DNA from: Aliarcobacter lanthieri
GTDB taxonomy: Bacteria; Campylobacterota; Campylobacteria; Campylobacterales; Arcobacteraceae
Direction of reading: 5' to 3'
Assembly (NCBI RefSeq): GCF_013201625.1
Contig: NZ_CP053839.1
Span: 2,046,001 to 2,110,000 of the forward strand
DNA: 64,000 bases
The translations under genes were made by a program, and so were the position numbers. Of the stretch, positions 21,701-47,531 are shown one piece after another (position 1 is the stretch's first letter; each line of letters starts with the position of its first letter). Under the pieces are notes generated by a model. It saw nothing but the letters and a program-made list of their open reading frames with translations, had not been told where the DNA came from and did no database searches.

Positions 21701-24700
21701 GGATTTGCAAATGTTACTGTATATGTAATCTCTGCACTCTCTTCATCTCCACTTGCAACTGATGTTAATGTATAGTCTGTTGTATCTACATGATCTGCAA
21801 ACTCTTTTGCTGTTGCATTATTTACTGGATTTAAATCTTCAAATTTTGAGTTATTTGTTGAACTTAAATCTGTTGGTGCTGGTACATTTGTTACATCTTG
21901 GTAATAATCTTTTGAAGAATCTGCATAAGAAACTGTTGTTGAAGCTCCATTACTATTTGCTGGTACAGTAATTGTTATTGTCTCATTACCTACTTTGAAT
22001 GTTACTGTCTCTTCTTCTTTTGTTGGATTTGCAAATGTTACTGTATATGTAATCTCTGCACTCTCTTCATCTCCACTTGCAACTGATGTTAATGTATAGT
22101 CTGTTGTATCTACATGATCTGCAAACTCTTTTGCTGTTGCATTATTTACTGGATTTAAATCTTCAAATTTTGAGTTATTTGTTGAACTTAAATCTGTTGG
22201 TGCTGGTACATTTGTTACATCTTGGTAATAATCTTTTGAAGAATCTGCATAAGAAACTGTTGTTGAAGCTCCATTACTATTTGCTGGTACAGTAATTGTT
22301 ATTGTCTCATTACCTACTTTGAATGTTACTGTCTCTTCTTCTTTTGTTGGATTTGCAAATGTTACTGTATATGTAATCTCTGCACTCTCTTCATCTCCAC
22401 TTGCAACTGATGTTAATGTATAGTCTGTTGTATCTACATGATCTGCAAACTCTTTTGCTGTTGCATTATTTACTGGATTTAAATCTTCAAATTTTGAGTT
22501 ATTTGTTGAACTTAAATCTGTTGGTGCTGGTACATTTGTTACATCTTGGTAATAATCTTTTGAAGAATCTGCATAAGAAACTGTTGTTGAAGCTCCATTA
22601 CTATTTGCTGGTACAGTAATTGTTATTGTCTCATTACCTACTTTGAATGTTACTGTCTCTTCTTCTTTTGTTGGATTTGCAAATGTTACTGTATATGTAA
22701 TCTCTGCACTCTCTTCATCTCCACTTGCAACTGATGTTAATGTATAGTCTGTTGTATCTACATGATCTGCAAACTCTTTTGCTGTTGCATTATTTACTGG
22801 ATTTAAATCTTCAAATTTTGAGTTATTTGTTGAACTTAAATCTGTTGGTGCTGGTACATTTGTTACATCTTGGTAATAATCTTTTGAAGAATCTGCATAA
22901 GAAACTGTTGTTGAAGCTCCATTACTATTTGCTGGTACAGTAATTGTTATTGTCTCATTACCTACTTTGAATGTTACTGTCTCTTCTTCTTTTGTTGGAT
23001 TTGCAAATGTTACTGTATATGTAATCTCTGCACTCTCTTCATCTCCACTTGCAACTGATGTTAATGTATAGTCTGTTGTATCTACATGATCTGCAAACTC
23101 TTTTGCTGTTGCATTATTTACTGGATTTAAATCTTCAAATTTTGAGTTATTTGTTGAACTTAAATCTGTTGGTGCTGGTACATTTGTTACATCTTGGTAA
23201 TAATCTTTTGAAGAATCTGCATAAGAAACTGTTGTTGAAGCTCCATTACTATTTGCTGGTACAGTAATTGTTATTGTCTCATTACCTACTTTGAATGTTA
23301 CTGTCTCTTCTTCTTTTGTTGGATTTGCAAATGTTACTGTATATGTAATCTCTGCACTCTCTTCATCTCCACTTGCAACTGATGTTAATGTATAGTCTGT
23401 TGTATCTACATGATCTGCAAACTCTTTTGCTGTTGCATTATTTACTGGATTTAAATCTTCAAATTTTGAGTTATTTGTTGAACTTAAATCTGTTGGTGCT
23501 GGTACATTTGTTACATCTTGGTAATAATCTTTTGAAGAATCTGCATAAGAAACTGTTGTTGAAGCTCCATTACTATTTGCTGGTACAGTAATTGTTATTG
23601 TCTCATTACCTACTTTGAATGTTACTGTCTCTTCTTCTTTTGTTGGATTTGCAAATGTTACTGTATATGTAATCTCTGCACTCTCTTCATCTCCACTTGC
23701 AACTGATGTTAATGTATAGTCTGTTGTATCTACATGATCTGCAAACTCTTTTGCTGTTGCATTATTTACTGGATTTAAATCTTCAAATTTTGAGTTATTT
23801 GTTGAACTTAAATCTGTTGGTGCTGGTACATTTGTTACATCTTGGTAATAATCTTTTGAAGAATCTGCATAAGAAACTGTTGTTGAAGCTCCATTACTAT
23901 TTGCTGGTACAGTAATTGTTATTGTCTCATTACCTACTTTGAATGTTACTGTCTCTTCTTCTTTTGTTGGATTTGCAAATGTTACTGTATATGTAATCTC
24001 TGCACTCTCTTCATCTCCACTTGCAACTGATGTTAATGTATAGTCTGTTGTATCTACATGATCTGCAAACTCTTTTGCTGTTGCATTATTTACTGGATTT
24101 AAATCTTCAAATTTTGAGTTATTTGTTGAACTTAAATCTGTTGGTGCTGGTACATTTGTTACATCTTGGTAATAATCTTTTGAAGAATCTGCATAAGAAA
24201 CTGTTGTTGAAGCTCCATTACTATTTGCTGGTACAGTAATTGTTATTGTCTCATTACCTACTTTGAATGTTACTGTCTCTTCTTCTTTTGTTGGATTTGC
24301 AAATGTTACTGTATATGTAATCTCTGCACTCTCTTCATCTCCACTTGCAACTGATGTTAATGTATAGTCTGTTGTATCTACATGATCTGCAAACTCTTTT
24401 GCTGTTGCATTATTTACTGGATTTAAATCTTCAAATTTTGAGTTATTTGTTGAACTTAAATCTGTTGGTGCTGGTACATTTGTTACATCTTGGTAATAAT
24501 CTTTTGAAGAATCTGCATAAGAAACTGTTGTTGAAGCTCCATTACTATTTGCTGGTACAGTAATTGTTATTGTCTCATTACCTACTTTGAATGTTACTGT
24601 CTCTTCTTCTTTTGTTGGATTTGCAAATGTTACTGTATATGTAATCTCTGCACTCTCTTCATCTCCACTTGCAACTGATGTTAATGTATAGTCTGTTGTA

Positions 24701-27700
24701 TCTACATGATCTGCAAACTCTTTTGCTGTTGCATTATTTACTGGATTTAAATCTTCAAATTTTGAGTTATTTGTTGAACTTAAATCTGTTGGTGCTGGTA
24801 CATTTGTTACATCTTGGTAATAATCTTTTGAAGAATCTGCATAAGAAACTGTTGTTGAAGCTCCATTACTATTTGCTGGTACAGTAATTGTTATTGTCTC
24901 ATTACCTACTTTGAATGTTACTGTCTCTTCTTCTTTTGTTGGATTTGCAAATGTTACTGTATATGTAATCTCTGCACTCTCTTCATCTCCACTTGCAACT
25001 GATGTTAATGTATAGTCTGTTGTATCTACATGATCTGCAAACTCTTTTGCTGTTGCATTATTTACTGGATTTAAATCTTCAAATTTTGAGTTATTTGTTG
25101 AACTTAAATCTGTTGGTGCTGGTACATTTGTTACATCTTGGTAATAATCTTTTGAAGAATCTGCATAAGAAACTGTTGTTGAAGCTCCATTACTATTTGC
25201 TGGTACAGTAATTGTTATTGTCTCATTACCTACTTTGAATGTTACTGTCTCTTCTTCTTTTGTTGGATTTGCAAATGTTACTGTATATGTAATCTCTGCA
25301 CTCTCTTCATCTCCACTTGCAACTGATGTTAATGTATAGTCTGTTGTATCTACATGATCTGCAAACTCTTTTGCTGTTGCATTATTTACTGGATTTAAAT
25401 CTTCAAATTTTGAGTTATTTGTTGAACTTAAATCTGTTGGTGCTGGTACATTTGTTACATCTTGGTAATAATCTTTTGAAGAATCTGCATAAGAAACTGT
25501 TGTTGAAGCTCCATTACTATTTGCTGGTACAGTAATTGTTATTGTCTCATTACCTACTTTGAATGTTACTGTCTCTTCTTCTTTTGTTGGATTTGCAAAT
25601 GTTACTGTATATGTAATCTCTGCACTCTCTTCATCTCCACTTGCAACTGATGTTAATGTATAGTCTGTTGTATCTACATGATCTGCAAACTCTTTTGCTG
25701 TTGCATTATTTACTGGATTTAAATCTTCAAATTTTGAGTTATTTGTTGAACTTAAATCTGTTGGTGCTGGTACATTTGTTACATCTTGGTAATAATCTTT
25801 TGAAGAATCTGCATAAGAAACTGTTGTTGAAGCTCCATTACTATTTGCTGGTACAGTAATTGTTATTGTCTCATTACCTACTTTGAATGTTACTGTCTCT
25901 TCTTCTTTTGTTGGATTTGCAAATGTTACTGTATATGTAATCTCTGCACTCTCTTCATCTCCACTTGCAACTGATGTTAATGTATAGTCTGTTGTATCTA
26001 CATGATCTGCAAACTCTTTTGCTGTTGCATTATTTACTGGATTTAAATCTTCAAATTTTGAGTTATTTGTTGAACTTAAATCTGTTGGTGCTGGTACATT
26101 TGTTACATCTTGGTAATAATCTTTTGAAGAATCTGCATAAGAAACTGTTGTTGAAGCTCCATTACTATTTGCTGGTACAGTAATTGTTATTGTCTCATTA
26201 CCTACTTTGAATGTTACTGTCTCTTCTTCTTTTGTTGGATTTGCAAATGTTACTGTATATGTAATCTCTGCACTCTCTTCATCTCCACTTGCAACTGATG
26301 TTAATGTATAGTCTGTTGTATCTACATGATCTGCAAACTCTTTTGCTGTTGCATTATTTACTGGATTTAAATCTTCAAATTTTGAGTTATTTGTTGAACT
26401 TAAATCTGTTGGTGCTGGTACATTTGTTACATCTTGGTAATAATCTTTTGAAGAATCTGCATAAGAAACTGTTGTTGAAGCTCCATTACTATTTGCTGGT
26501 ACAGTAATTGTTATTGTCTCATTACCTACTTTGAATGTTACTGTCTCTTCTTCTTTTGTTGGATTTGCAAATGTTACTGTATATGTAATCTCTGCACTCT
26601 CTTCATCTCCACTTGCAACTGATGTTAATGTATAGTCTGTTGTATCTACATGATCTGCAAACTCTTTTGCTGTTGCATTATTTACTGGATTTAAATCTTC
26701 AAATTTTGAGTTATTTGTTGAACTTAAATCTGTTGGTGCTGGTACATTTGTTACATCTTGGTAATAATCTTTTGAAGAATCTGCATAAGAAACTGTTGTT
26801 GAAGCTCCATTACTATTTGCTGGTACAGTAATTGTTATTGTCTCATTACCTACTTTGAATGTTACTGTCTCTTCTTCTTTTGTTGGATTTGCAAATGTTA
26901 CTGTATATGTAATCTCTGCACTCTCTTCATCTCCACTTGCAACTGATGTTAATGTATAGTCTGTTGTATCTACATGATCTGCAAACTCTTTTGCTGTTGC
27001 ATTATTTACTGGATTTAAATCTTCAAATTTTGAGTTATTTGTTGAACTTAAATCTGTTGGTGCTGGTACATTTGTTACATCTTGGTAATAATCTTTTGAA
27101 GAATCTGCATAAGAAACTGTTGTTGAAGCTCCATTACTATTTGCTGGTACAGTAATTGTTATTGTCTCATTACCTACTTTGAATGTTACTGTCTCTTCTT
27201 CTTTTGTTGGATTTGCAAATGTTACTGTATATGTAATCTCTGCACTCTCTTCATCTCCACTTGCAACTGATGTTAATGTATAGTCTGTTGTATCTACATG
27301 ATCTGCAAACTCTTTTGCTGTTGCATTATTTACTGGATTTAAATCTTCAAATTTTGAGTTATTTGTTGAACTTAAATCTGTTGGTGCTGGTACATTTGTT
27401 ACATCTTGGTAATAATCTTTTGAAGAATCTGCATAAGAAACTGTTGTTGAAGCTCCATTACTATTTGCTGGTACAGTAATTGTTATTGTCTCATTACCTA
27501 CTTTGAATGTTACTGTCTCTTCTTCTTTTGTTGGATTTGCAAATGTTACTGTATATGTAATCTCTGCACTCTCTTCATCTCCACTTGCAACTGATGTTAA
27601 TGTATAGTCTGTTGTATCTACATGATCTGCAAACTCTTTTGCTGTTGCATTATTTACTGGATTTAAATCTTCAAATTTTGAGTTATTTGTTGAACTTAAA

Positions 27701-30606
27701 TCTGTTGGTGCTGGTACATTTGTTACATCTTGGTAATAATCTTTTGAAGAATCTGCATAAGAAACTGTTGTTGAAGCTCCATTACTATTTGCTGGTACAG
27801 TAATTGTTATTGTCTCATTACCTACTTTGAATGTTACTGTCTCTTCTTCTTTTGTTGGATTTGCAAATGTTACTGTATATGTAATCTCTGCACTCTCTTC
27901 ATCTCCACTTGCAACTGATGTTAATGTATAGTCTGTTGTATCTACATGATCTGCAAACTCTTTTGCTGTTGCATTATTTACTGGATTTAAATCTTCAAAT
28001 TTTGAGTTATTTGTTGAACTTAAATCTGTTGGTGCTGGTACATTTGTTACATCTTGGTAATAATCTTTTGAAGAATCTGCATAAGAAACTGTTGTTGAAG
28101 CTCCATTACTATTTGCTGGTACAGTAATTGTTATTGTCTCATTACCTACTTTGAATGTTACTGTCTCTTCTTCTTTTGTTGGATTTGCAAATGTTACTGT
28201 ATATGTAATCTCTGCACTCTCTTCATCTCCACTTGCAACTGATGTTAATGTATAGTCTGTTGTATCTACATGATCTGCAAACTCTTTTGCTGTTGCATTA
28301 TTTACTGGATTTAAATCTTCAAATTTTGAGTTATTTGTTGAACTTAAATCTGTTGGTGCTGGTACATTTGTTACATCTTGGTAATAATCTTTTGAAGAAT
28401 CTGCATAAGAAACTGTTGTTGAAGCTCCATTACTATTTGCTGGTACAGTAATTGTTATTGTCTCATTACCTACTTTGAATGTTACTGTCTCTTCTTCTTT
28501 TGTTGGATTTGCAAATGTTACTGTATATGTAATCTCTGCACTCTCTTCATCTCCACTTGCAACTGATGTTAATGTATAGTCTGTTGTATCTACATGATCT
28601 GCAAACTCTTTTGCTGTTGCATTATTTACTGGATTTAAATCTTCAAATTTTGAGTTATTTGTTGAACTTAAATCTGTTGGTGCTGGTACATTTGTTACAT
28701 CTTGGTAATAATCTTTTGAAGAATCTGCATAAGAAACTGTTGTTGAAGCTCCATTACTATTTGCTGGTACAGTAATTGTTATTGTCTCATTACCTACTTT
28801 GAATGTTACTGTCTCTTCTTCTTTTGTTGGATTTGCAAATGTTACTGTATATGTAATCTCTGCACTCTCTTCATCTCCACTTGCAACTGATGTTAATGTA
28901 TAGTCTGTTGTATCTACATGATCTGCAAACTCTTTTGCTGTTGCATTATTTACTGGATTTAAATCTTCAAATTTTGAGTTATTTGTTGAACTTAAATCTG
29001 TTGGTGCTGGTACATTTGTTACATCTTGGTAATAATCTTTTGAAGAATCTGCATAAGAAACTGTTGTTGAAGCTCCATTACTATTTGCTGGTACAGTAAT
29101 TGTTATTGTCTCATTACCTACTTTGAATGTTACTGTCTCTTCTTCTTTTGTTGGATTTGCAAATGTTACTGTATATGTAATCTCTGCACTCTCTTCATCT
29201 CCACTTGCAACTGATGTTAATGTATAGTCTGTTGTATCTACATGATCTGCAAACTCTTTTGCTGTTGCATTATTTACTGGATTTAAATCTTCAAATTTTG
29301 AGTTATTTGTTGAACTTAAATCTGTTGGTGCTGGTACATTTGTTACATCTTGGTAATAATCTTTTGAAGAATCTGCATAAGAAACTGTTGTTGAAGCTCC
29401 ATTACTATTTGCTGGTACAGTAATTGTTATTGTCTCATTACCTACTTTGAATGTTACTGTCTCTTCTTCTTTTGTTGGATTTGCAAATGTTACTGTATAT
29501 GTAATCTCTGCACTCTCTTCATCTCCACTTGCAACTGATGTTAATGTATAGTCTGTTGTATCTACATGATCTGCAAACTCTTTTGCTGTTGCATTATTTA
29601 CTGGATTTAAATCTTCAAATTTTGAGTTATTTGTTGAACTTAAATCTGTTGGTGCTGGTACATTTGTTACATCTTGGTAATAATCTTTTGAAGAATCTGC
29701 ATAAGAAACTGTTGTTGAAGCTCCATTACTATTTGCTGGTACAGTAATTGTTATTGTCTCATTACCTACTTTGAATGTTACTGTCTCTTCTTCTTTTGTT
29801 GGATTTGCAAATGTTACTGTATATGTAATCTCTGCACTCTCTTCATCTCCACTTGCAACTGATGTTAATGTATAGTCTGTTGTATCTACATGATCTGCAA
29901 ACTCTTTTGCTGTTGCATTATTTACTGGATTTAAATCTTCAAATTTTGAGTTATTTGTTGAACTTAAATCTGTTGGTGCTGGTACATTTGTTACATCTTG
30001 GTAATAATCTTTTGAAGAATCTGCATAAGAAACTGTTGTTGAAGCTCCATTACTATTTGCTGGTACAGTAATTGTTATTGTCTCATTACCTACTTTGAAT
30101 GTTACTGTCTCTTCTTCTTTTGTTGGATTTGCAAATGTTACTGTATATGTAATCTCTGCACTCTCTTCATCTCCACTTGCAACTGATGTTAATGTATAGT
30201 CTGTTGTATCTACATGATCTGCAAACTCTTTTGCTGTTGCATTATTTACTGGATTTAAATCTTCAAATTTTGAGTTATTTGTTGAACTTAAATCTGTTGG
30301 TGCTGGTACATTTGTTACATCTTGGTAATAATCTTTTGAAGAATCTGCATAAGAAACTGTTGTTGAAGCTCCATTACTATTTGCTGGTACAGTAATTGTT
30401 ATTGTCTCATTACCTACTTTGAATGTTACTGTCTCTTCTTCTTTTGTTGGATTTGCAAATGTTACTGTATATGTAATCTCTGCACTCTCTTCATCTCCAC
30501 TTGCAACTGATGTTAATGTATAGTCTGTTGTATCTACATGATCTGCAAACTCTTTTGCTGTTGCATTATTTACTGGATTTAAATCTTCAAATTTTGAGTT
30601 ATTTTC
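15796..30606 (-). CDS. Giant Ig-like-repeat adhesin, type I secreted (5'-truncated at a breakpoint)
   Basis: An uninterrupted minus-strand frame of 4,936 codons plus stop; I checked the unique part for stops and the repeat is 324 bp, so it stays in frame. Order from the broken N-terminal end: about 3,915 residues of 108-residue Ig-like repeats (each begins near LTSVASGDEESAEITYTVTF), about 240 residues of divergent Ig-like sequence, a VCBS domain (ending GSNDAPI), a DUF4114-like domain (GFEDTPL then DYNDFVISV), cadherin-like domains, and a C-terminal block INLTNDKENKLSLTLDDVLK typical of type I secreted adhesins. No RTX nonapeptides and no cysteine were seen in the repeats. The start codon, export anchor and any LapG cleavage site are missing: an in-frame TAA lies at 30607-30609 inside the neighbouring transporter gene. 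Likely role is surface attachment or biofilm formation. No type I secretion genes are in the window. Confidence 0.85.
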   Translation of the reverse strand, partial: ENNSKFEDLNPVNNATAKEFADHVDTTDYTLTSVASGDEESAEITYTVTFANPTKEEETVTFKVGNETITITVPANSNGASTTVSYADSSKDYYQDVTNVPAPTDLSSTNNSKFEDLNPVNNATAKEFADHVDTTDYTLTSVASGDEESAEITYTVTFANPTKEEETVTFKVGNETITITVPANSNGASTTVSYADSSKDYYQDVTNVPAPTDLSSTNNSKFEDLNPVNNATAKEFADHVDTTDYTLTSVASGDEESAEITYTVTFANPTKEEETVTFKVGNETITITVPANSNGASTTVSYADSSKDYYQDVTNVPAPTDLSSTNNSKFEDLNPVNNATAKEFADHVDTTDYTLTSVASGDEESAEITYTVTFANPTKEEETVTFKVGNETITITVPANSNGASTTVSYADSSKDYYQDVTNVPAPTDLSSTNNSKFEDLNPVNNATAKEFADHVDTTDYTLTSVASGDEESAEITYTVTFANPTKEEETVTFKVGNETITITVPANSNGASTTVSYADSSKDYYQDVTNVPAPTDLSSTNNSKFEDLNPVNNATAKEFADHVDTTDYTLTSVASGDEESAEITYTVTFANPTKEEETVTFKVGNETITITVPANSNGASTTVSYADSSKDYYQDVTNVPAPTDLSSTNNSKFEDLNPVNNATAKEFADHVDTTDYTLTSVASGDEESAEITYTVTFANPTKEEETVTFKVGNETITITVPANSNGASTTVSYADSSKDYYQDVTNVPAPTDLSSTNNSKFEDLNPVNNATAKEFADHVDTTDYTLTSVASGDEESAEITYTVTFANPTKEEETVTFKVGNETITITVPANSNGASTTVSYADSSKDYYQDVTNVPAPTDLSSTNNSKFEDLNPVNNATAKEFADHVDTTDYTLTSVASGDEESAEITYTVTFANPTKEEETVTFKVGNETITITVPANSNGASTTVSYADSSKDYYQDVTNVPAPTDLSSTNNSKFEDLNPVNNATAKEFADHVDTTDYTLTSVASGDEESAEITYTVTFANPTKEEETVTFKVGNETITITVPANSNGASTTVSYADSSKDYYQDVTNVPAPTDLSSTNNSKFEDLNPVNNATAKEFADHVDTTDYTLTSVASGDEESAEITYTVTFANPTKEEETVTFKVGNETITITVPANSNGASTTVSYADSSKDYYQDVTNVPAPTDLSSTNNSKFEDLNPVNNATAKEFADHVDTTDYTLTSVASGDEESAEITYTVTFANPTKEEETVTFKVGNETITITVPANSNGASTTVSYADSSKDYYQDVTNVPAPTDLSSTNNSKFEDLNPVNNATAKEFADHVDTTDYTLTSVASGDEESAEITYTVTFANPTKEEETVTFKVGNETITITVPANSNGASTTVSYADSSKDYYQDVTNVPAPTDLSSTNNSKFEDLNPVNNATAKEFADHVDTTDYTLTSVASGDEESAEITYTVTFANPTKEEETVTFKVGNETITITVPANSNGASTTVSYADSSKDYYQDVTNVPAPTDLSSTNNSKFEDLNPVNNATAKEFADHVDTTDYTLTSVASGDEESAEITYTVTFANPTKEEETVTFKVGNETITITVPANSNGASTTVSYADSSKDYYQDVTNVPAPTDLSSTNNSKFEDLNPVNNATAKEFADHVDTTDYTLTSVASGDEESAEITYTVTFANPTKEEETVTFKVGNETITITVPANSNGASTTVSYADSSKDYYQDVTNVPAPTDLSSTNNSKFEDLNPVNNATAKEFADHVDTTDYTLTSVASGDEESAEITYTVTFANPTKEEETVTFKVGNETITITVPANSNGASTTVSYADSSKDYYQDVTNVPAPTDLSSTNNSKFEDLNPVNNATAKEFADHVDTTDYTLTSVASGDEESAEITYTVTFANPTKEEETVTFKVGNETITITVPANSNGASTTVSYADSSKDYYQDVTNVPAPTDLSSTNNSKFEDLNPVNNATAKEFADHVDTTDYTLTSVASGDEESAEITYTVTFANPTKEEETVTFKVGNETITITVPANSNGASTTVSYADSSKDYYQDVTNVPAPTDLSSTNNSKFEDLNPVNNATAKEFADHVDTTDYTLTSVASGDEESAEITYTVTFANPTKEEETVTFKVGNETITITVPANSNGASTTVSYADSSKDYYQDVTNVPAPTDLSSTNNSKFEDLNPVNNATAKEFADHVDTTDYTLTSVASGDEESAEITYTVTFANPTKEEETVTFKVGNETITITVPANSNGASTTVSYADSSKDYYQDVTNVPAPTDLSSTNNSKFEDLNPVNNATAKEFADHVDTTDYTLTSVASGDEESAEITYTVTFANPTKEEETVTFKVGNETITITVPANSNGASTTVSYADSSKDYYQDVTNVPAPTDLSSTNNSKFEDLNPVNNATAKEFADHVDTTDYTLTSVASGDEESAEITYTVTFANPTKEEETVTFKVGNETITITVPANSNGASTTVSYADSSKDYYQDVTNVPAPTDLSSTNNSKFEDLNPVNNATAKEFADHVDTTDYTLTSVASGDEESAEITYTVTFANPTKEEETVTFKVGNETITITVPANSNGASTTVSYADSSKDYYQDVTNVPAPTDLSSTNNSKFEDLNPVNNATAKEFADHVDTTDYTLTSVASGDEESAEITYTVTFANPTKEEETVTFKVGNETITITVPANSNGASTTVSYADSSKDYYQDVTNVPAPTDLSSTNNSKFEDLNPVNNATAKEFADHVDTTDYTLTSVASGDEESAEITYTVTFANPTKEEETVTFKVGNETITITVPANSNGASTTVSYADSSKDYYQDVTNVPAPTDLSSTNNSKFEDLNPVNNATAKEFADHVDTTDYTLTSVASGDEESAEITYTVTFANPTKEEETVTFKVGNETITITVPANSNGASTTVSYADSSKDYYQDVTNVPAPTDLSSTNNSKFEDLNPVNNATAKEFADHVDTTDYTLTSVASGDEESAEITYTVTFANPTKEEETVTFKVGNETITITVPANSNGASTTVSYADSSKDYYQDVTNVPAPTDLSSTNNSKFEDLNPVNNATAKEFADHVDTTDYTLTSVASGDEESAEITYTVTFANPTKEEETVTFKVGNETITITVPANSNGASTTVSYADSSKDYYQDVTNVPAPTDLSSTNNSKFEDLNPVNNATAKEFADHVDTTDYTLTSVASGDEESAEITYTVTFANPTKEEETVTFKVGNETITITVPANSNGASTTVSYADSSKDYYQDVTNVPAPTDLSSTNNSKFEDLNPVNNATAKEFADHVDTTDYTLTSVASGDEESAEITYTVTFANPTKEEETVTFKVGNETITITVPANSNGASTTVSYADSSKDYYQDVTNVPAPTDLSSTNNSKFEDLNPVNNATAKEFADHVDTTDYTLTSVASGDEESAEITYTVTFANPTKEEETVTFKVGNETITITVPANSNGASTTVSYADSSKDYYQDVTNVPAPTDLSSTNNSKFEDLNPVNNATAKEFADHVDTTDYTLTSVASGDEESAEITYTVTFANPTKEEETVTFKVGNETITITVPANSNGASTTVSYADSSKDYYQDVTNVPAPTDLSSTNNSKFEDLNPVNNATAKEFADHVDTTDYTLTSVASGDEESAEITYTVTFANPTKEEETVTFKVGNETITITVPANSNGASTTVSYADSSKDYYQDVTNVPAPTDLSSTNNSKFEDLNPVNNATAKEFADHVDTTDYTLTSVASGDEESAEITYTVTFANPTKEEETVTFKVGNETITITVPANSNGASTTVSYADSSKDYYQDVTNVPAPTDLSSTNNSKFEDLNPVNNATAKEFADHVDTTDYTLTSVASGDEESAEITYTVTFANPTKEEETVTFKVGNETITITVPANSNGASTTVSYADSSKDYYQDVTNVPAPTDLSSTNNSKFEDLNPVNNATAKEFADHVDTTTVTITANPVKEGENIVFTATVDADKTPKEDLVISVKDSNGKEVSTITIPKGQTTGSSNQVINPNQDDVYKDGETLNYTTEVKSGGDEYEKLEVQKDVSVVVTDTINKVYVDVTANNTDINEGSSVTYTVTLRNKDGFEVKNHDGLTITLSNGAKITIPAGEISSSSSPIKVDKTGSHTIEIDKIVEIATVDSGKQFEDIQAGATVTVNVSSSTFKNDIAIAIESGSANIASQKDDGQIAKGNVLKNDDIFGTSNRKILKVTFDGKEITVKSSGHTEIIGKYGTLTINSKGDFEYKINDDNTEVDSLNIGDKLAEHFTYTTPKGEAVLTIEIQGSNDAPIIENIETNGVTLTGIYNDYQSDNVSENITAQDLIKNDGKNSYQFRNENNTLKMDIGKTETDVSIKYEGKNAGYKSILGYYEKNPDGTIGNLKIIFVNGSMENDVSLKAITGEIGFFLIPNGANNNDIMKIINKGESNYSLARDDSGQIIFTSGKSSVTAKDVYYTDESLSTEKKDHTIALKSDNPNSIIIGFEDTPLYNDQTDYDYNDFVISVTFTPSESLTNKLFKNIEFSDVDDDSLSEATVVLKNAKAGDKINIVGDLKEGIGYTIIEKDGQIIIKFIGKASHEAYAEALEAIRFSTKNSEDERELNFDIEIKDPNGKTDKISTVIIGKGFNNHIPTIDNEKVNAYEDVPYTFSKKDFDSYKDIDGDDIETIKIITLPDSTKGVLKYDGELIIAGKEILVKDLDKLVYETVKNSDKDVTFKFQVSDDRGAYSEIKEMHINVIEVADAPDLAIDITKVALEDYAIKVNVQLTDTDGSEILKKDSVGNTIITLKNIPDGSKLFGSDGQEIISNEDGSYIVKVDSNGEANLSLKGKDFSDIELNAIQAEATSYEKNKDGVLTDSATTIVTKDTISFDSKGDIDLSNLKGIIKDLKEINLTNDKENKLSLTLDDVLKLSGDDNTIKISGDKFDKVEFKNEDGKVWEKQQSITDGDKTFDVYSGIIGDQTVHVKVEQPISDGITN
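18862..30604 (-). repeat. 36.2 tandem copies of a 324-bp unit
   Basis: The period is exactly 324 bp, beginning at 18862 (the base before it breaks the period) and ending at 30604 in the middle of a unit. Every copy I compared is identical in DNA as well as protein, for example the 60-base rows starting at 19201, 20821, 22441, 24061, 25681, 27301 and 28921. The unit encodes 108 residues of an Ig-like adhesin domain, rich in Thr, Val, Asn, Asp and Glu. On the plus strand each unit also shows a leucine-rich 72-codon open frame, a composition artefact of the repeat. Confidence 0.97.
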
Positions 30607-30610
30607 TTAG
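30598..30610. other. Breakpoint: repeat array joined to transporter coding sequence
   Basis: Sequence matches the 324-bp unit through 30604 and departs at 30605. From 30601 the plus-strand frame reads IFLAVVIGLIIEPVPAALIG, the N-terminal region of a DASS transporter, in frame with its body. The adhesin loses its 5' end and the transporter loses roughly its first 50 codons at the same point. Since the two genes are divergent, one deletion (or one assembly skip) of the block between them explains both losses. Confidence 0.85.
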
Positions 30611-31899
30611 CTGTTGTTATTGGACTTATTATTGAACCAGTTCCAGCAGCCTTAATAGGATTTTCTGGTGTTTCATTAATAGCAGCTCTTGGTTTAATGG
30701 GAAATGCAAAAGTAAGTATAAATTGGGCATTATCAGGATTTGGTAATAGCGTAATATGGTTAATTTTTGCTGCATTTATGTTTGCATTAGGTTATAAAAA
30801 AACAGGTTTAGGAAGAAGAGTATCTTTAATTATGGTTAAATATATGGGGAAAAGTACTCTAGGATTAGGATATGCTGTTGCATTTTCTGATTTAGTACTA
30901 GCTCCATTTATGCCATCTAATACGGCTAGAAGTGGTGGAAGTGTTTATCCTGTTGCTATTAATATTCCACATATTTTCAACTCTTATCCAGATAATGAAC
31001 CAAGAAAAATTGGTGCTTATATATCTTGGGTTGCAATAGCTACAACTTGTGTAACAAGTTCTATGTTTTTAACTGCACTTGCTCCAAATTTATTAGCTGT
31101 TGATTTAATAACTAAAAGTACTGGACATGCAATTACATGGATGGAATGGGCTAAAATAATGATTCCTCTTATGGTTCCATTGTTTATATTAACTCCTTGG
31201 CTTACTTATGTTATATACCCACCTACTCAAAAGAAATCTCCAGAAGCTCCAGCTTGGGCAGCTGAAGAACTAAAAAAATTAGGTGGTATAACTTTTAAAG
31301 AGTATCTAATGGCAGGACTTGCAACAGTTGCATTAGTTCTTTGGATTTTTGGTAAAGAAGTTGGGATTGATGCAACTACAACAGCTATTTGTGTAGTTTC
31401 AGTTATGGTTTTATCAGGAGTTATCTCTTGGGATGATTTATTAGGAGAAAAAGCTGCATTTAATGTATTTATCTGGTTTGCTACTTTAGTTGCATTAGCT
31501 GATGGATTAAAAAAAGTTGGAATTTTAGATTATATTGGACAAAATTCTGAAGCTATGTTAGCAGGTTTAAGTCCTACAGCACTTATTATTGCTTTACTTT
31601 TCTTATTTTATATATTACACTATTTCTTTGCTAGTACAACTGCACATGTTACTGCTTTAGTACCTTTATTTATGGTTATAGCAGTACAATTTTTACCAGC
31701 AGAATCAATCCTTACTTTCACAATTTTACTTGCAGGAAGTTTAGGTGTTATGGGAATAATAACTCCTTATGGTTGTGGTCCTTGTCCGATTTGGTATGGA
31801 GCTGGTTATATTTCACAAGCTAAATGGTGGGCACTAGGTGCTATATTTGGATTACTATATTTCCTAGTTATTATATTAGGTGTATTCATCTTTATATAA
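30601..31899 (+). CDS. DASS-family anion (dicarboxylate/citrate-type) transporter, 5'-truncated
   Basis: 432 codons are in frame from the breakpoint; the first ATG is at 30697 (400 residues). The family usually has about 470-490 residues, so roughly the first 50, including the first membrane segment, are missing. The SNT signature PSNTARSGG and a second half-site ASTTAHVTALVPLF identify a divalent-anion:sodium symporter of the SLC13/CitT type, which moves C4-dicarboxylates, 2-oxoglutarate or citrate. About eleven membrane segments remain. An in-frame TGA at 30595 blocks upstream extension and no start codon or ribosome-binding site suits 30601, so as written it is probably not functional. A strong terminator follows. 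Confidence 0.85.
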   Translation: MFLAVVIGLIIEPVPAALIGFSGVSLIAALGLMGNAKVSINWALSGFGNSVIWLIFAAFMFALGYKKTGLGRRVSLIMVKYMGKSTLGLGYAVAFSDLVLAPFMPSNTARSGGSVYPVAINIPHIFNSYPDNEPRKIGAYISWVAIATTCVTSSMFLTALAPNLLAVDLITKSTGHAITWMEWAKIMIPLMVPLFILTPWLTYVIYPPTQKKSPEAPAWAAEELKKLGGITFKEYLMAGLATVALVLWIFGKEVGIDATTTAICVVSVMVLSGVISWDDLLGEKAAFNVFIWFATLVALADGLKKVGILDYIGQNSEAMLAGLSPTALIIALLFLFYILHYFFASTTAHVTALVPLFMVIAVQFLPAESILTFTILLAGSLGVMGIITPYGCGPCPIWYGAGYISQAKWWALGAIFGLLYFLVIILGVFIFI

Positions 31900-36641: not shown

Positions 36642-38018
36642 CTATTCAAAATTAATTTGAGGTTGTCCTAAATAGTAACCTTGAAACTCATCAACATCCA
36701 TCTTTATTAAAATATTAAATATTTCTTCATTATGTACATATTCTGCAATAGTTTTTATATTTAAAGTTTTACTAAAGGCTATTATTGATTTTACAATTTC
36801 ATAAGAATTTTTATCTATGTCTATATTTTTTATTAAACTCCCATCAATTTTTAAATAATCAGGTTTTATTCTAAGAATTCTCAAAAAGTTTGAATATCCA
36901 CTTCCAAAATCATCAATAGCTATTTTGATACCTTGCTTTTTGTATTTTAAAACAAATTCTTCTAAAAAATTATAATCACTTAAACTTTCAGTTTCTAGTA
37001 TTTCAAATACAACTCTACTTTTATCTTCTTTACTTAAAATATTCATCATCTCATCTAAGTAATCAATAAAATCATAATTTAGAATATCTTTAAAACTCAA
37101 ATTTATAGTAATTTGTTTATTGGTTTTTAAAAGATTTTCAAAACTTTTTGAGACAATTATTTTTGATAATTCTAAATATTGCTTTGTTTTAAATGATATT
37201 CCTAAAAATTTATCAGGAGTTATAAAAATAGCCTCACTATCTTCATTAAATTCTTCAATTCTCATCAAAGTTTCATATTTTATAATATTTTTATTTTGAT
37301 CTGTAATTGGTTGATAAAAAGGAATAACCCTATTTTCTTCAACAGCTTTTTTAATTTTTTCTCTCCAATATAAACTTTGTATAATTAACTCTTTTGAATC
37401 TAGTTCATTATTGTAAACAAAATAGCTTTGATTTAAAGATTTTGCTTTTTTCAAAGCCATAGCAGATGTTATTAAAGGCTCTTCTTGGAATATTGATATA
37501 CCCATAGTCATAGAAACAATAATATCAGATTTTAATTCATCTATATATATTTTTTTATTTAAAAAAGTTTGGTTTAATTTCTCTATTAATAAAAATATAT
37601 CATTAAATGGCATATTTTTTGCATTTACAAGAGCGAATATATCTCCACTTAATCTATATGCAATTACATCATAGCTATTTTCAAATTCCTTTAATATATT
37701 TGCAACTTCTACTAAAACTAATTCTGCATTAATAAAGCCATAAAGTTCATTTAAATCTTCAAAAGAATCTAAATCAAGTAAGACAGTAACTACACTATCT
37801 TTATCTTTAATATAATCTTCTAAAGCTTTTCTATTTTTTAAATTTGTAAGTTCATCATTGTAAAGTCTATCTTCTACCTCTTTTTTTACATCTTCAACAA
37901 TTTTTTGACAAACCTTTTTTGTATTTATAATACTTCTTATATATAGTAAGAAAAAAGAGATAGAAAGTATTATTAATATAATTTCTAATATATTAATATG
38001 TTGCAATTCTTTGTCCAA
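36642..38018 (-). CDS. Membrane-anchored GGDEF-EAL protein, likely c-di-GMP phosphodiesterase
   Basis: 458 residues. One membrane segment (about residues 8-30), then a GGDEF domain (DELTNLKNRKALEDYI) whose active-site motif is degenerate, SGDIF at 124-128, then an EAL domain. The EAL domain keeps its catalytic set: ETL at 249-251, N in TINLS, E in FEILET, DDFGSGYS, K in LKIDGSLI, and E in AEYV. This predicts hydrolysis of c-di-GMP with a regulatory or dead cyclase half. It overlaps the end of psd by 26 bases. It lacks the periplasmic sensor domain expected of LapD. Confidence 0.88.
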   Translation of the reverse strand: MDKELQHINILEIILIILSISFFLLYIRSIINTKKVCQKIVEDVKKEVEDRLYNDELTNLKNRKALEDYIKDKDSVVTVLLDLDSFEDLNELYGFINAELVLVEVANILKEFENSYDVIAYRLSGDIFALVNAKNMPFNDIFLLIEKLNQTFLNKKIYIDELKSDIIVSMTMGISIFQEEPLITSAMALKKAKSLNQSYFVYNNELDSKELIIQSLYWREKIKKAVEENRVIPFYQPITDQNKNIIKYETLMRIEEFNEDSEAIFITPDKFLGISFKTKQYLELSKIIVSKSFENLLKTNKQITINLSFKDILNYDFIDYLDEMMNILSKEDKSRVVFEILETESLSDYNFLEEFVLKYKKQGIKIAIDDFGSGYSNFLRILRIKPDYLKIDGSLIKNIDIDKNSYEIVKSIIAFSKTLNIKTIAEYVHNEEIFNILIKMDVDEFQGYYLGQPQINFE

Positions 38019-42791: not shown

Positions 42792-43583
42792 CTAAAATTG
42801 TATAATTTTTTCAAAAAAATATTCATAATCTTTTGATAACTCACCAACAACCAACATTTTAACGTCTTCGTTATTGATTTTGCAAAATTTACAAATTCCA
42901 ATATAGTTTTGTGGTAAGAATCTATCAAAGTATAACCCTTCTTGAAGATCATCTATAATATATCCTTTCAAAAATCTATCAATTGTAAACTCATCAAAAT
43001 CATAGTTCAATGCCAAAGATAAAAACTCTTTGTAGTTAAAAATCTCAAAATTGTCACTTTGTAAACTTTGATTTATACTATTATATAACTCGAATGCTCC
43101 AACATCTTTTGAGATTTTTAAAATATCTTTTAATTCAAAGTTTAAAAAATCTTTTAAAAATCTACTTAAAGCTTCACTGTATCTGATACTTACTGCAAAA
43201 GTTGAAAATTCTAAAATCATATATCTATTTTCTACATTTATTATATTTCTTAAAATATCTTGCTTCTCTTTTTTTAGAAACACTGTTAATCCAATTTTAG
43301 AACTAAAATATTCTAAAGATTTTATATTTATACCACTCAAATTAAAATCTAATTTTCCACTCCAATATTGTCTTAAAGCTTCATTTGAAGGTGTTCTTCC
43401 ACTACTTATATGTTCTTGAACTAAATATCCTTCATCTCCCAATTTCTTAAAATAACCTCTAATTGTAGCTGGAGAATATGATAAATCATACATAGATTTT
43501 AATTGTGTTGAACCAATTGGCTCTAAATGTTCTATATATGCTTTGATAATAGATTGTAATAAGAACTCTTTTTTATCTATCAT
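42792..43583 (-). CDS. hrcA: Heat-inducible transcription repressor HrcA
   Basis: 263 residues, shorter than the Bacillus type (about 340) but normal for Campylobacterota. The N-terminal winged helix is visible in YSPATIRGYFKKLGDEGYLVQEHISSGRTPS, the best-conserved HrcA signature. The C-terminal effector part is poorly conserved, as usual. HrcA binds CIRCE operators and is kept active by GroEL. A CIRCE-like element lies directly upstream of this gene (43606-43632), so it represses its own operon. Confidence 0.93.
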   Translation of the reverse strand: MIDKKEFLLQSIIKAYIEHLEPIGSTQLKSMYDLSYSPATIRGYFKKLGDEGYLVQEHISSGRTPSNEALRQYWSGKLDFNLSGINIKSLEYFSSKIGLTVFLKKEKQDILRNIINVENRYMILEFSTFAVSIRYSEALSRFLKDFLNFELKDILKISKDVGAFELYNSINQSLQSDNFEIFNYKEFLSLALNYDFDEFTIDRFLKGYIIDDLQEGLYFDRFLPQNYIGICKFCKINNEDVKMLVVGELSKDYEYFFEKIIQF

Positions 43584-43605
43584 AAATTATAACCATTTCA
43601 TAAAT

Positions 43606-43632
43606 TTAGCACTCTATATCTCAAACTGCTAA
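43606..43632 (-). promoter_or_regulatory. CIRCE operator (HrcA-binding site)
   Basis: TTAGCACTC, nine spacer bases, then AACTGCTAA. The left arm matches the CIRCE consensus exactly and the right arm at 7 of 9 positions, with the canonical N9 spacing. It overlaps the expected transcription start just downstream of the -10 box, so bound HrcA would block initiation. Confidence 0.88.
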
Positions 43633-43635
43633 AGA

Positions 43636-43665
43636 ATTATAACTTATTGAGTCAATATTTGTCAA
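43636..43665 (-). promoter_or_regulatory. Sigma-70 promoter of hrcA-grpE-dnaK
   Basis: On the minus strand a perfect -35 TTGACA (complement of 43660-43665) and a perfect -10 TATAAT (complement of 43636-43641) are separated by 18 bases. A start site just downstream would fall inside the CIRCE element. This is the best promoter visible in the window. Confidence 0.85.
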
Positions 43666-43666
43666 G
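43646..43666 (-). promoter_or_regulatory. HAIR-like element, possible HspR-binding site
   Basis: Minus strand reads CTTGACA, seven bases, ACTCAAT, against the HspR consensus CTTGAGT-N7-ACTCAAG: 11 of 14 positions match with exact spacing. It covers the -35 box. HspR itself is not encoded in the window, so binding is inferred from the site alone. Confidence 0.5.
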
Positions 43667-43696
43667 TGTTTTTAAATACTTTTAAAAAAATATTTA

Positions 43697-44347
43697 TTAT
43701 TCATCTAATTTGTAAACTCTATTTAGAATTTTTTCCCATTTATTGTCATTTTGCCAATCAATAATTGCTTTTTGTGTAAACTTATCTTTTGAAAATTGAT
43801 ATGAATCTATTTCATTAAAAGCAACAATAGGAGTTAAATCAGTTCTTTTTGAAAAAGGAAGAACTTTAAAACTAAGATTATCTAAAACTAAAGCGGATCT
43901 ATTTTTGTCTTTTAAATATAGTAAAACCATATGTTTCCCAGGGCTTCCTTCTACACTTACAATTGCAAGATATAAATCTTCTTTTTTTACTCCTAACTCT
44001 AAAAGAGTAAAATATTTAGCTATAACATAATCTTCACAATCTCCAAATCCTTTAAAAAAGAACTCTTTAGGAGTCATCCAATAATCATCAATTCCTGAAC
44101 TTTTACTATCAAATTCAGGTAAAGTTCTATTAATAAAAAAGTTTGTTTGTGATAATTTTTTATCTATATCAAAATTTTTAGCTTTTACTTTAAATTCCTT
44201 ATATTTTTCTAATCTTTTTAAAATAGCTGTTTTTTGTTTTGAGCTATTTATAAATTTTATATCTTTTTCATTTAATTTAAATTCATAAGCAAATAAATTT
44301 ATACTAAATATAAAAAAGATAATAAACTTCAAAAATATATTAATCAT
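43697..44347 (-). CDS. LapG-like periplasmic cysteine protease (transglutaminase-like, C93 type)
   Basis: 216 residues with an N-terminal signal peptide (hydrophobic residues 4-20). The catalytic triad of bacterial transglutaminase-like cysteine proteases is in place: Cys104 in GFGDCEDYV, His139 in KHMVLLY and Asp156 in LVLDNL; WMTPKEFF just before is also typical. LapG enzymes cut giant type I secreted adhesins near their N-terminus and detach cells from surfaces; LapD holds LapG inactive when c-di-GMP is high. The partner adhesin candidate is at 15.8-30.6 kb. The gene overlaps the esterase gene upstream by 8 bases. No LapD was recognised here. Confidence 0.85.
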   Translation of the reverse strand: MINIFLKFIIFFIFSINLFAYEFKLNEKDIKFINSSKQKTAILKRLEKYKEFKVKAKNFDIDKKLSQTNFFINRTLPEFDSKSSGIDDYWMTPKEFFFKGFGDCEDYVIAKYFTLLELGVKKEDLYLAIVSVEGSPGKHMVLLYLKDKNRSALVLDNLSFKVLPFSKRTDLTPIVAFNEIDSYQFSKDKFTQKAIIDWQNDNKWEKILNRVYKLDE

Positions 44348-45209
44348 ATATTTTTAATGCTTGATTTAATGCAGGGAATAAAGCCTCAAGATGAGTAGCA
44401 TTTGATATATTAAAAATCTTTATTTGTAGATTTTTAGTATTTTCTAAATTTGAAGCAAATATCTCAACATCTTTTGGATTTTTATCTTTATTTTCTATTT
44501 CACCTACACTCAAAATTAATTTTGTTGGATTTTTAAACTCTATTTTTTTATTTTCTATATCTTTTAATATAGCAAAATCATTCCACCATATAGATGGACT
44601 AGCTGATACAAAATTTTGAAAATCATTTGGATGATTTAAAAAAGCATATAAAGTAAAAAGACCACCATAAGAGTGCCCAAATAAAGTTTGTTTATTTTTA
44701 TCAATTAAATAATTTTTTTCAATAATTGGCTTTAATTGATTTTGTAAGAAACTATAAAAAGTTTCTGCTCCACCTTGAATATATTGTGAACTCCCACGAT
44801 TTTCTGGAGCCTTTAGTTCTCCTTCATATGGTGGAGTATAATCAAAACTTCTTGCTTCTATATCAAAAAGTTCTCCTGAAGCATAGCCTATTGATACTAT
44901 CAAAGGAGGTGTCTTTTTAGTACGATATGACATATTATCTATAGCTTGAGCCATAACTGAAGCATAAGGGAAAGTTGCATTCCCATCTAAAATATATAAC
45001 ACAGGATAACCATCTTTTGGTGCTACTGTTTTTGGTTTATAAACTTGTACTAAATAGTTTTGTTTATGAAATTTAGATTCTAAAGTAAACTCTTGATTTT
45101 GCTCTGCTCCAATTAAATCAATACCTTTTTGTATATTAATTTCAGAGTTTGCAAATAAAAAAACGTTTAAAAAAGCTATATAAGTAAATATTTTTAATAA
45201 ATTCTTCAT
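44340..45209 (-). CDS. Exported alpha/beta-hydrolase, esterase D / Fes-like family
   Basis: 289 residues with a signal peptide (residues 1-20). The nucleophile serine lies in FGHSYGGLFTLYAF, and the motifs YPVLYILDGNATFPY and VSIGYASGELFDIEARSFDYTPP match the putative-esterase family that includes IroE/BesA-type siderophore esterases. The catalytic His is probably in ATHLEALFPAL near the C-terminus. Hydrolysis of ferric siderophores in the periplasm is possible, but no siderophore genes are nearby, so the substrate is uncertain. It lies between truA and the LapG-like gene. Confidence 0.8.
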   Translation of the reverse strand: MKNLLKIFTYIAFLNVFLFANSEINIQKGIDLIGAEQNQEFTLESKFHKQNYLVQVYKPKTVAPKDGYPVLYILDGNATFPYASVMAQAIDNMSYRTKKTPPLIVSIGYASGELFDIEARSFDYTPPYEGELKAPENRGSSQYIQGGAETFYSFLQNQLKPIIEKNYLIDKNKQTLFGHSYGGLFTLYAFLNHPNDFQNFVSASPSIWWNDFAILKDIENKKIEFKNPTKLILSVGEIENKDKNPKDVEIFASNLENTKNLQIKIFNISNATHLEALFPALNQALKIYD

Positions 45210-45218
45210 TTCTATCCT

Positions 45219-45941
45219 TTAATATTTTATTTGTGCAAGATACAAACCATTTGCACTAGCAGGAGTTTTAAATATATGTTTCTTACAATTTAATTGATTT
45301 TTTAAATCTTCTATTGTTAATTTTTTTTCATTAATAGAAAGTAAAAAACCAACCATAAGTCTAATTTGACTTCTTAGATATGAATTTGCTGTAAATTTAA
45401 AAATATAAATATTTTTATATTTATAAAACTTTGTATCAAAAATTTCTCTTTTTGTGTTCTCTTTATCACTTCCTGTTTTATGAAAGAACTTAAAATCATA
45501 AACTCCTATAAACTCTTTTATCGCACTTTTTAGAAGTTCTTCATCTACATTTTTTACATAAGTCATATATTTTGCATTAAAAGGTGTTGTAGGTTTTGTA
45601 GTAATTATATATCTATAAACTCTTTTTTTTGCACTAAATCTTGAGTGAAAATCATCACTTACTTTTGATATTTTTAAAATTTTTATAGAACTTGGAAGCC
45701 TTCTATTTAAAATATCTTTTAATTTAAAAAAGTTATCAAAATATTCTGGAATAAAACAATTAAAAACTTGTTTTGTAGCGTGAACATCTTTATCTGTTCT
45801 TCCACTAAAAATAATCTTTGTATCAATACTAAAAGTTTTAAAAATTTTTAAAAGTTCATCTTCAACTGTATTTTGATTTGGTTGCTTTTGACTTCCAAAG
45901 TATAAACTTCCATCATAAGAACAAATAAATTTCAAATTCAA
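45219..45941 (-). CDS. truA: tRNA pseudouridine(38-40) synthase TruA
   Basis: 240 residues. The catalytic Asp52 is in SGRTDKDVHA, the TruA signature, and the C-terminal YLRSQIRLMVGFLL is also conserved. It converts uridines 38-40 of the anticodon arm to pseudouridine. It follows lptF by a single base and belongs to the block uppS-A24 peptidase-lptF-truA, conserved in Campylobacter. Confidence 0.94.
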   Translation of the reverse strand: MNLKFICSYDGSLYFGSQKQPNQNTVEDELLKIFKTFSIDTKIIFSGRTDKDVHATKQVFNCFIPEYFDNFFKLKDILNRRLPSSIKILKISKVSDDFHSRFSAKKRVYRYIITTKPTTPFNAKYMTYVKNVDEELLKSAIKEFIGVYDFKFFHKTGSDKENTKREIFDTKFYKYKNIYIFKFTANSYLRSQIRLMVGFLLSINEKKLTIEDLKNQLNCKKHIFKTPASANGLYLAQIKY

Positions 45942-45942
45942 A

Positions 45943-46962
45943 TCAATACTCTTTTTTTATTGTCTTACTGTATAAAATATAACTTGAAAATAACCAAATA
46001 GAAGGAATAATATAAAGTGAATGTAATAAAAATCTATCTCCAATATATTTTATAAATATATAATATATAACTACTGTAATAATAGAATAAATTACTGTTC
46101 TATTTTTATCATATCTTGGATTAAAATATCCATAGATTATAACTAAAAATATAGATATTAAAGGAAATATCGAAGTTAGTATAAAGAATATAAAAGAATC
46201 ATTATCCAAATTATATTTTAAACTTAAAATCCAATAATTAAAACTAGTTGTAAAAGAATTAATCTGGTTATCCTTTATAACTTCATTAATATACATTTCA
46301 TCATAATTTATCTGATTTAAAGAATCTTTTTCTAGTATAAAGATTTTTCCATCTAATAATTTAAAGATCAAATAGCCATCATTATCTAAAAAAGCTTCCT
46401 TCGCAATAATAAATTGTTCATTCTCATTATTATTACTTGCTTTTAATAATTTAACATCTTTAAAAATATTATTTTCCTTAGAATTTATAAAAATAAGCCA
46501 TTCTCCAAATTTTTGACCAAATTCACTTTCTCTTATATTAAAATTTGCTTCAGCCTTTTTTACATTAATAAATTCATTCATTGAATATTTTGTTTTAGGA
46601 ATTAAACCTAATGTTAAAATCAGAGAAGTTATAGATACAAAAATTGTGATAGGTAAAAATGATTTTATAATTCTTATTGGTCCAACTCCAAAAGATGTAA
46701 TCACAGTAAGTTCATACTCACCTGATAACTTTGAAATACTTATTGATAGTGATATAAAAAAAGATATAGGAAATGTAAAAAGTAAAATTTGAGGAATAGT
46801 ATAACTGTAAAGTTCAAATAACTCAAAAAAATTTATTGTAATAACTGATGTTAAAGATACAATTCTTACTAAAAAAACAACCGATGTTATAAAAAACAAC
46901 CCTAAAAATATTGGGAAAAAAGTAAGTGATAGTTGCGAATATAAATAATTATTTAATCTCAA
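45943..46962 (-). CDS. lptF: LptF/LptG-family lipopolysaccharide export permease
   Basis: 339 residues with six membrane segments in two groups of three, separated by a periplasmic beta-jellyroll region (about residues 130-230), the YjgP/YjgQ layout. ISISKLSGEYELTVITSFGVG is the conserved cytoplasmic coupling region for the ATPase LptB. It moves lipopolysaccharide from the inner membrane toward the outer membrane. The start is a TTG overlapping the TGA stop of the upstream gene (TTGA). LptF rather than LptG is chosen on general resemblance and synteny. Confidence 0.82.
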   Translation of the reverse strand: MRLNNYLYSQLSLTFFPIFLGLFFITSVVFLVRIVSLTSVITINFFELFELYSYTIPQILLFTFPISFFISLSISISKLSGEYELTVITSFGVGPIRIIKSFLPITIFVSITSLILTLGLIPKTKYSMNEFINVKKAEANFNIRESEFGQKFGEWLIFINSKENNIFKDVKLLKASNNNENEQFIIAKEAFLDNDGYLIFKLLDGKIFILEKDSLNQINYDEMYINEVIKDNQINSFTTSFNYWILSLKYNLDNDSFIFFILTSIFPLISIFLVIIYGYFNPRYDKNRTVIYSIITVVIYYIFIKYIGDRFLLHSLYIIPSIWLFSSYILYSKTIKKEY

Positions 46963-47531
46963 TAAAAATCCTTCAAATAGCTAAAAATATTTAAAAAAAA
47001 CTCTAAAAAAAATGCAAATACTAAAGATGGAATAAATGGAATCTCATTGTCTTTTTTCATTATTCTTATATAAATTATATGTATTATACCAATAATTGCA
47101 CTTAAGAATATAGTAAAAATTGCTTCTTGTAATCCTAAAATAACTCCTATTGATGCAATTAATGGTATATCCCCTTCACCTAAAGCAGTTTTTGTTTTTA
47201 AACTCTCATCATTTAAAATCTTTGATTTTATATTTTGTATATAAAAAGTAACTAAAAAATTTAGTAAAACCATAGCACCACTTAAAAGTAAAGCATTTTG
47301 GAAAGATGTTATAAAATCAAATTTTGTTATAAAAAATGATAAAACTAAAACAACTAAAAGTAAATAATCAGGAACCGCCTTATATTTTAAGTCATATGAA
47401 CAAAGAACTAATAGAATATAAAAAAATATTGAATATTGAATAAATACAATCCCTAAATGAAATTTAGAAAATAGTAATATTATTACAAAAAAAGATGAAA
47501 TTATTACTTTTAAACTTTTATAATGCTCCAA
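46959..47531 (-). CDS. A24-family prepilin peptidase (short form)
   Basis: 190 residues and about six membrane segments. The two catalytic aspartates are D47 in CSYDLKYKAVPDYLL and D121 in the GxGD motif ALGEGDIPL. The N-terminal cytoplasmic methyltransferase domain with its CxxC pairs is absent, so it may process prepilins without methylating them. It corresponds by position to the peptidase next to uppS in Campylobacter jejuni. It overlaps uppS by 14 bases and lptF by 4 bases. No pilin or type II secretion genes are in this window. Confidence 0.85.
   Translation of the reverse strand: MEHYKSLKVIISSFFVIILLFSKFHLGIVFIQYSIFFYILLVLCSYDLKYKAVPDYLLLVVLVLSFFITKFDFITSFQNALLLSGAMVLLNFLVTFYIQNIKSKILNDESLKTKTALGEGDIPLIASIGVILGLQEAIFTIFLSAIIGIIHIIYIRIMKKDNEIPFIPSLVFAFFLEFFLNIFSYLKDFY

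Follow-up and report, generated by a model that had tools for sequence, protein, structure and literature searches.

The window, a 64,000-nucleotide stretch of the Aliarcobacter lanthieri genome, carries on its minus strand (43697-44347) a gene for a LapG-like protease of 216 amino acids, which we refer to as LapG2. The protein scored 50.5 bits against Pfam Peptidase_C93 (cut-off 27) and 111.6 bits against the NCBIfam LapG model, far under the equivalog cut-off of 320. Since the LapD-adjacent LapG of the same genome also falls under this cut-off with 176.3 bits, the cut-off mirrors the distance from the seed set. The top structure matches in a phmmer search were the LapG structures of Pseudomonas fluorescens (4u65, E 2e-23) and Legionella pneumophila (4fgo, E 6e-23), both of which are labelled LapD-linked from the literature. 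An AF2 model with a mean pLDDT of 89.9 likewise gave 4fgo as the top Foldseek match (E 2.6e-12), with 4u65 also among the leading fold matches.

The catalytic and calcium-binding residues were examined by alignment with known LapG proteins. The codon of the catalytic C104 (44036-44038, minus strand) lies in a D-C-E-D calcium/catalytic motif and aligns to LapG C135, which is invariant in all 78 proteins compared. H139 (43931-43933, minus strand), also invariant, corresponds to position 170 when P. fluorescens LapG is numbered with C135 as the anchor, and D156 (43880-43882, minus strand) corresponds to D187, found in 32 of 32 orphans, the term used here for C93 proteins whose genes do not adjoin LapD. 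The calcium-motif residues D80, D103, E105 and D106 are present in LapG2, and the equivalents of the triad and calcium residues were found in 28 to 32 of the 32 orphans. The hydrophobic N-terminus, MINIFLKFIIFFIFSINLFA, was judged by eye to be a signal peptide of approximately residues 1-20 (44288-44347, minus strand), where the AF2 model has a helix at residues 2-19; it reads as a signal for export to the periplasm. The initial annotation had taken C104/H139/D156 and the signal peptide as fitting the LapG family, and the residues are exactly as it stated, in agreement with the C93 and LapG profiles and the two structures. The matches and the alignment confirm LapG2 as a C93 protease, apparently exported, whose triad and calcium motif are complete, and its predicted fold resembles that of LapG. 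The dN/dS values of about 0.15-0.32 against seven relatives, together with orthologues in six other genomes of the genus, indicate a conserved gene under purifying selection and not a chance open reading frame. By this gene, the closest named relative is Aliarcobacter vitoriensis (82% identity) in a scan of named genomes that returned three loci.

The gene order around LapG2 is glmU-coaBC-uppS-(46959-47531)-lptF-truA, followed by a putative esterase, LapG2 and then hrcA-grpE-dnaK. The esterase gene (44340-45209, minus strand; Pfam Esterase, 75 bits) overlaps the start of LapG2 by 8 bases; in several relatives it does not separate truA from LapG2. The upstream neighbour kept in the subclade of the window is truA (45219-45941, minus strand), and the conserved downstream neighbour is hrcA (42792-43583, minus strand), which has its own promoter, TTGACA-18-TATAAT, at 43665-43636. 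The region upstream of hrcA (43584-43696) combines this perfect sigma-70-type promoter with a CIRCE-like inverted repeat, TTAGCACTC...AACTGCTAA, indicating that the heat-shock operon begins independently right after LapG2. An orthologue lies between hrcA and truA in six other genomes of the same genus, so that seven genomes of the window's subclade have it there; in the sister subclade the orphan is at a different conserved site. The placement at the end of a housekeeping operon, which had been noted as unusual, is therefore real but conserved in this one subclade only, with Lap operons or other sites elsewhere.

The window also contains the C-terminal part of a giant adhesin (15796-30606, minus strand), consisting of a repeat array with LapA, DUF4114 and VCBS domains. 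The array has 36 identical repeats of 324 bp (108 amino acids) at 18924-30587 on the minus strand. The frame is open for 4936 codons and has no start codon (ATG, GTG or TTG) before 18132, because the identical repeats contain none. As assembled, it has neither an N-terminal retention module nor a di-alanine site. The array is fused to a gene for a DASS anion symporter without its N-terminus (30598-31899, plus strand), whose profile match begins at position 34 of 472 and which is 400 amino acids long from its first ATG, against 468 in genome G005. The switch from one gene to the other occurs within a few bases at 30598-30606, with about 3 shared bases in the region 30587-30610. Both genes are broken in the assembly and the N-termini are missing from both. 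A. vitoriensis has at this place an adhesin N-terminus with METAAGDVTEQ, an SGNH-type protein and a full DASS gene, and G005 an adhesin N-terminus with METAAGDPTQQ, cob-type genes and a full DASS gene; the intact adhesins of both have the retention module and TAAG. CobS of the G005 locus has no match in the A. lanthieri genome, and the A. vitoriensis gene order suggests that the cob genes were never at the adhesin site in the nearer relatives. The fusion may reflect a genuine deletion, or else the assembly went wrong at the long perfect repeat. We considered two other accounts and rejected both: the segment 30697-31899 is not an insertion-sequence transposase that interrupted the adhesin gene but the DASS symporter, and the missing N-terminus is not elsewhere in the genome, where a retention_LapA search gave only a second adhesin (L087, below) and an unrelated frame of 449 amino acids.

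A GGDEF-EAL protein is encoded at 36642-38018 on the minus strand, with an EAL match of 182 bits; its motifs ETLMR and DDFGSG are intact, and its GGDEF motif has degenerated to SGDIF. These motifs make it a probable c-di-GMP phosphodiesterase, and nothing links it to LapG2.

A search of the whole 2.28-Mb genome, a single contig, found two C93 genes, LapG2 and a LapG at L003:9520-10119, the latter scoring 176.3 bits against NCBIfam LapG. It is directly upstream of LapD (L003:10116-11996), the pair spanning L003:9520-11996. LapD matched PF16448 with 88.9 bits and had NCBIfam LapD as its top match (233.9 bits); it reads as having degenerate GGDEF and EAL domains, and the GW loop motif is present, but GWxQ reads GWNV. 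A LapB/C/E-type secretion operon at L088:6220-12371 encodes an LssB-type ATPase (858 bits, cut-off 693) and HlyD-type and TolC-type proteins; with a LuxR-type gene this LapE/LapB/LapC-type operon spans L088:6220-14047. An intact giant adhesin of 3267 amino acids at L087:7840-17643 has a retention-module-like N-terminus, with a retention_LapA match of E 1.7e-5 that is under the curated cut-off, and a TAAG site in DDIETAAGDVTEQ. The LapG cleavage site is [T/A/P]AAG (PMC13090378). Two candidate assignments were rejected: the window gene is not the only or canonical LapG of the genome, since the second C93 gene adjoins LapD, and a partial C93/LapD-like match at 615 kb is not a second LapD, being only a domain end in a frame of 285 amino acids.

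These matches support the conclusion that A. lanthieri carries a Lap-type system of LapG-LapD, LapB/C/E and a TAAG adhesin, entirely outside the window. Several proposals of the initial annotation can be judged by these results. It had suggested a Lap-type switch in the organism and looked to LapD and a LapB/C/E-type secretion system as its marks; both were found, at L003:10116-11996 and L088:6220-12371, but the protease of the window is an orphan paralogue and not the LapD-paired LapG. A giant adhesin and a c-di-GMP phosphodiesterase do lie in the same 64 kb as it had claimed, the latter plausibly so, but the adhesin is a C-terminal part only and the phosphodiesterase is unlinked to the protease. 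It had further proposed to look for an intact adhesin N-terminus with a di-alanine LapG site. The retention module is absent from the window adhesin as assembled, which for that gene counts against the proposed switch, whereas TAAG is present in the intact L087 adhesin and also in the same-place adhesins of A. vitoriensis and G005.

The distribution of C93 genes follows that of LapD closely. The same 25 of 41 relatives carry both. Within the genus, a single orphan C93 occurs in each of the 22 genomes that have a Lap system, and three genomes without C93 (G008, G019 and G023) are also without LapD and without a LapB match over the cut-off. In a sample of the phylum, C93 was found in 82 of 298 genomes, and LapD was present in 88 of the 89 C93-bearing genomes tested. 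The one other genome, G261, has no detectable LapD and a lone orphan C93, and beside the orphan is an adhesin stub of 619 amino acids (L235:17047-19541, plus strand). We rejected G261 as a natural LapD-free LapG2 system because its adhesin is a stub; its intact orphan is apparently a relic of a deleted Lap locus. Several Campylobacterota with LapG-LapD carry no orphan. Many genomes of genus g10 have a single C93, and the singles examined there (G129, G076 and G198) are LapD-adjacent, indicating that LapG2 is dispensable.

A tree was constructed for 78 C93 proteins, a selected set whose neighbourhoods had been read. It included 46 LapD-linked proteins (44 adjacent to LapD here plus the two LapGs of solved structure) and 32 orphans. 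One branch splits the two classes with support of 95/88 and occurs in 98% of the bootstrap trees. After the addition of five gammaproteobacterial and three alphaproteobacterial relatives, the orphan clade had support of 100/95. The tree is unrooted and has long branches (for example G162, G155 and G265), so the deepest members are uncertain. LapD is adjacent to the orphan at none of the 32 loci examined, while LapGs of the LapD type always adjoin it; among the proteins scanned, orphans scored 84-125 bits against NCBIfam LapG versus 176-229 bits for the LapD-adjacent relatives. By its position in this tree, the protease of the window is an orphan paralogue in a LapD-free, phylum-wide clade and not a LapD-paired LapG. 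The C93 proteins of alphaproteobacterial plasmids (Ensifer canadensis L255, Aminobacter L256 and Bosea L254) resemble LapG2 in that their genes lie close to those for type I secretion and that the stretch read holds no LapD, but they are longer and group apart from the campylobacterotal orphans, in a clade of their own (100/99). A VCBS adhesin gene lies near the Ensifer gene. In the sister subclade, L105:2129-4357 (minus strand) and similar loci of the same genus encode a long form of LapD of about 740-750 amino acids, in which about 100 inserted residues interrupt the LapD_MoxY_N domain and which pairs with its own LapG type.

The residues that face LapD were compared between the two classes in P. 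fluorescens numbering. D111, D134, C135, E136, H170 and D187 are kept in 32 of 32 orphans. V205, Y206, Y176 and A169 of P. fluorescens LapG were cross-linked to LapD, and the pocket for the LapD tryptophan is formed by strand beta-4 and the motifs preceding it (PMC4359373). In the orphans, V205 and Y206 are mostly changed, as is A169; Y160 is kept in 1 of 32, A196 in none (L or F instead), and L213 is changed. LapG2 of the window has K, L, I and V at 169, 176, 205 and 206, and some orphans keep F or Y at 176 or 206. The orphans have lost nine of the 61 positions that show class conservation among LapD-linked proteins; three cross-link sites could be tested, and two of them are among the nine (Fisher p = 0.054). 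Y108, a non-interface residue that did not cross-link, is also among the losses. These changes do no more than suggest a loss of LapD docking in the orphans. The LapD-docking sheet of LapG also binds the targeting helix of the substrate (PMC13090378), and the changes could instead mean a different substrate.

The loci of orphans in other genomes were inspected for links to adhesins. The order in G138 and G273 is lapE-lapG-lapD-lapB-lapC-luxR-adhesin-lapG2, and that in G033, G113 and G197 is lapE-lapG-lapD-lapB-lapC-x-luxR-lapG2. The orphan is directly downstream of a gene for a large T1SS-type adhesin in G138, G273, G210 and G155. The adhesins of G138, G273 and G210 have TAAG, and that of G155 has no TAAG within its first 230-300 residues. 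The presence of orphans in the Lap loci of other families ties LapG2 to adhesin biology and indicates that the housekeeping placement is derived. The retention-like N-termini of G029 and G034, genomes without C93 and LapD, show no TAAG. Retention-like adhesins without the AAG motif also occur at L061, L073 and L245:9503-14020 (minus strand), one of them beside lapB/lapC, although their genomes have LapG and LapD; such adhesins might stay anchored for good or be cleaved at another site. A protein of about 1120 amino acids with transglutaminase-like and DUF2126 amidoligase parts is encoded immediately after the adhesin-LapG2 pair, at L193:4615-7977 (plus strand) and L209:4623-7994 (plus strand).

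We propose that LapG2 is an accessory adhesin protease, a second LapG-type enzyme that would work beside LapG-LapD and outside canonical LapD control, and we give this reading a probability of about one half. LapG2 would cut LapA-type adhesins at or near the TAAG site of the retention module, and the cutting may help to release or trim them. It would not be held by LapD in the canonical way, and its timing may depend on expression, on calcium or on some other partner instead of on c-di-GMP through LapD. In the lineage of the window, lapG2 would have left the adhesin genes and come to lie between hrcA and truA. Evidence for this proposal comes from the co-occurrence of C93 and LapD, the clade split, the residue losses, the links to Lap operons and the TAAG adhesins. 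Against it count the nine-position loss that includes Y108, the docking sheet shared with the substrate, the stub in G261 and the genomes with LapG-LapD that have no orphan. LapG2 shares with the LapGs of P. fluorescens and L. pneumophila (PF06035 / NF045674) the fold, the Cys-His-Asp triad, the calcium residues, an apparent periplasmic export and a genome with LapD, LapB/C/E and TAAG adhesins. It is unlike them in forming a separate clade, in never being adjacent to lapD, in its changed LapD-facing residues and in its lower NCBIfam LapG score.

Somewhat unlikely, in our estimate, is that LapG2 is a second LapG under the same LapD, diverged in sequence but obeying the same c-di-GMP switch, perhaps with the adhesins divided between the two proteases. 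The near-complete co-occurrence of LapD with C93 agrees with such an arrangement, as do the orphans that keep F or Y at 176 or 206 and the observation that the output domain of a foreign LapD is still bound by LapG orthologues sharing about 30-40% identity (PMC4359373). The strict split in gene adjacency speaks against it, together with the changes at the LapD-facing A169, V205 and Y206 and at the nearby A196 and L213.

It is less probable still that LapG2 answers to a different membrane receptor, which would give adhesin release two c-di-GMP (or other) inputs. The model for this is DvhG of Desulfovibrio vulgaris, whose pocket for the LapD tryptophan is apparently occluded and which is held to be regulated by the HD-GYP/dCache receptor DvhD in a LapD-like but molecularly distinct manner (PMC13090378). 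DvhG is, like LapG2, a C93 protein with a conserved triad and calcium site and a LapD-tryptophan pocket thought to be altered, and the changes in LapG2 are near the same face. Compared by description, DvhG is anchored in the membrane and has a long linker, and its gene adjoins that of DvhD, whereas LapG2 is short, has a signal peptide only and has no receptor gene adjacent. In the window its neighbours are hrcA and the esterase, with no HD-GYP/dCache receptor gene beside it, and no receptor gene was found beside the orphans whose neighbours were read or scanned.

Improbable, finally, is that LapG2 has left adhesin processing for another envelope target, as in the capsule control by the Caulobacter BTLCP HvyA, which is a non-adhesin role within the wider family (PMC4241560): in the clade of the window no T1SS or adhesin gene is linked to LapG2, and its substrate-binding side could be altered, but the genus-wide co-occurrence with LapD and LapB, their joint absence from three genomes and the orphans directly downstream of adhesin genes in G138, G273, G210 and G155 argue against it. 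HvyA resembles LapG2 as an exported C93 protein with conserved calcium-binding residues and no LapD control described; it differs in lying in a capsule export locus, in controlling capsulation and in having no adhesin link.

The proposal of an accessory adhesin protease can be extended, tentatively and with more doubt than confidence, to the phylum: many Campylobacterota may run a two-protease system, in which a LapD-sequestered LapG is accompanied by an ancient sister without the LapD docking face that would release the same adhesins independently of LapD. A full-text literature search, with subscription papers and preprints outside its scope, gave no report of Campylobacterota having two LapG lineages. 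Lap-type detachment has been understood as the work of a single protease governed by a single c-di-GMP receptor. The existence of a conserved, LapD-unlinked sister of LapG that shares its genomes, and at times an operon, with the LapD-type enzyme raises the question of how the adhesin is held if the second protease is not sequestered. If the two-protease reading is true, the cell would have a second way to detach.
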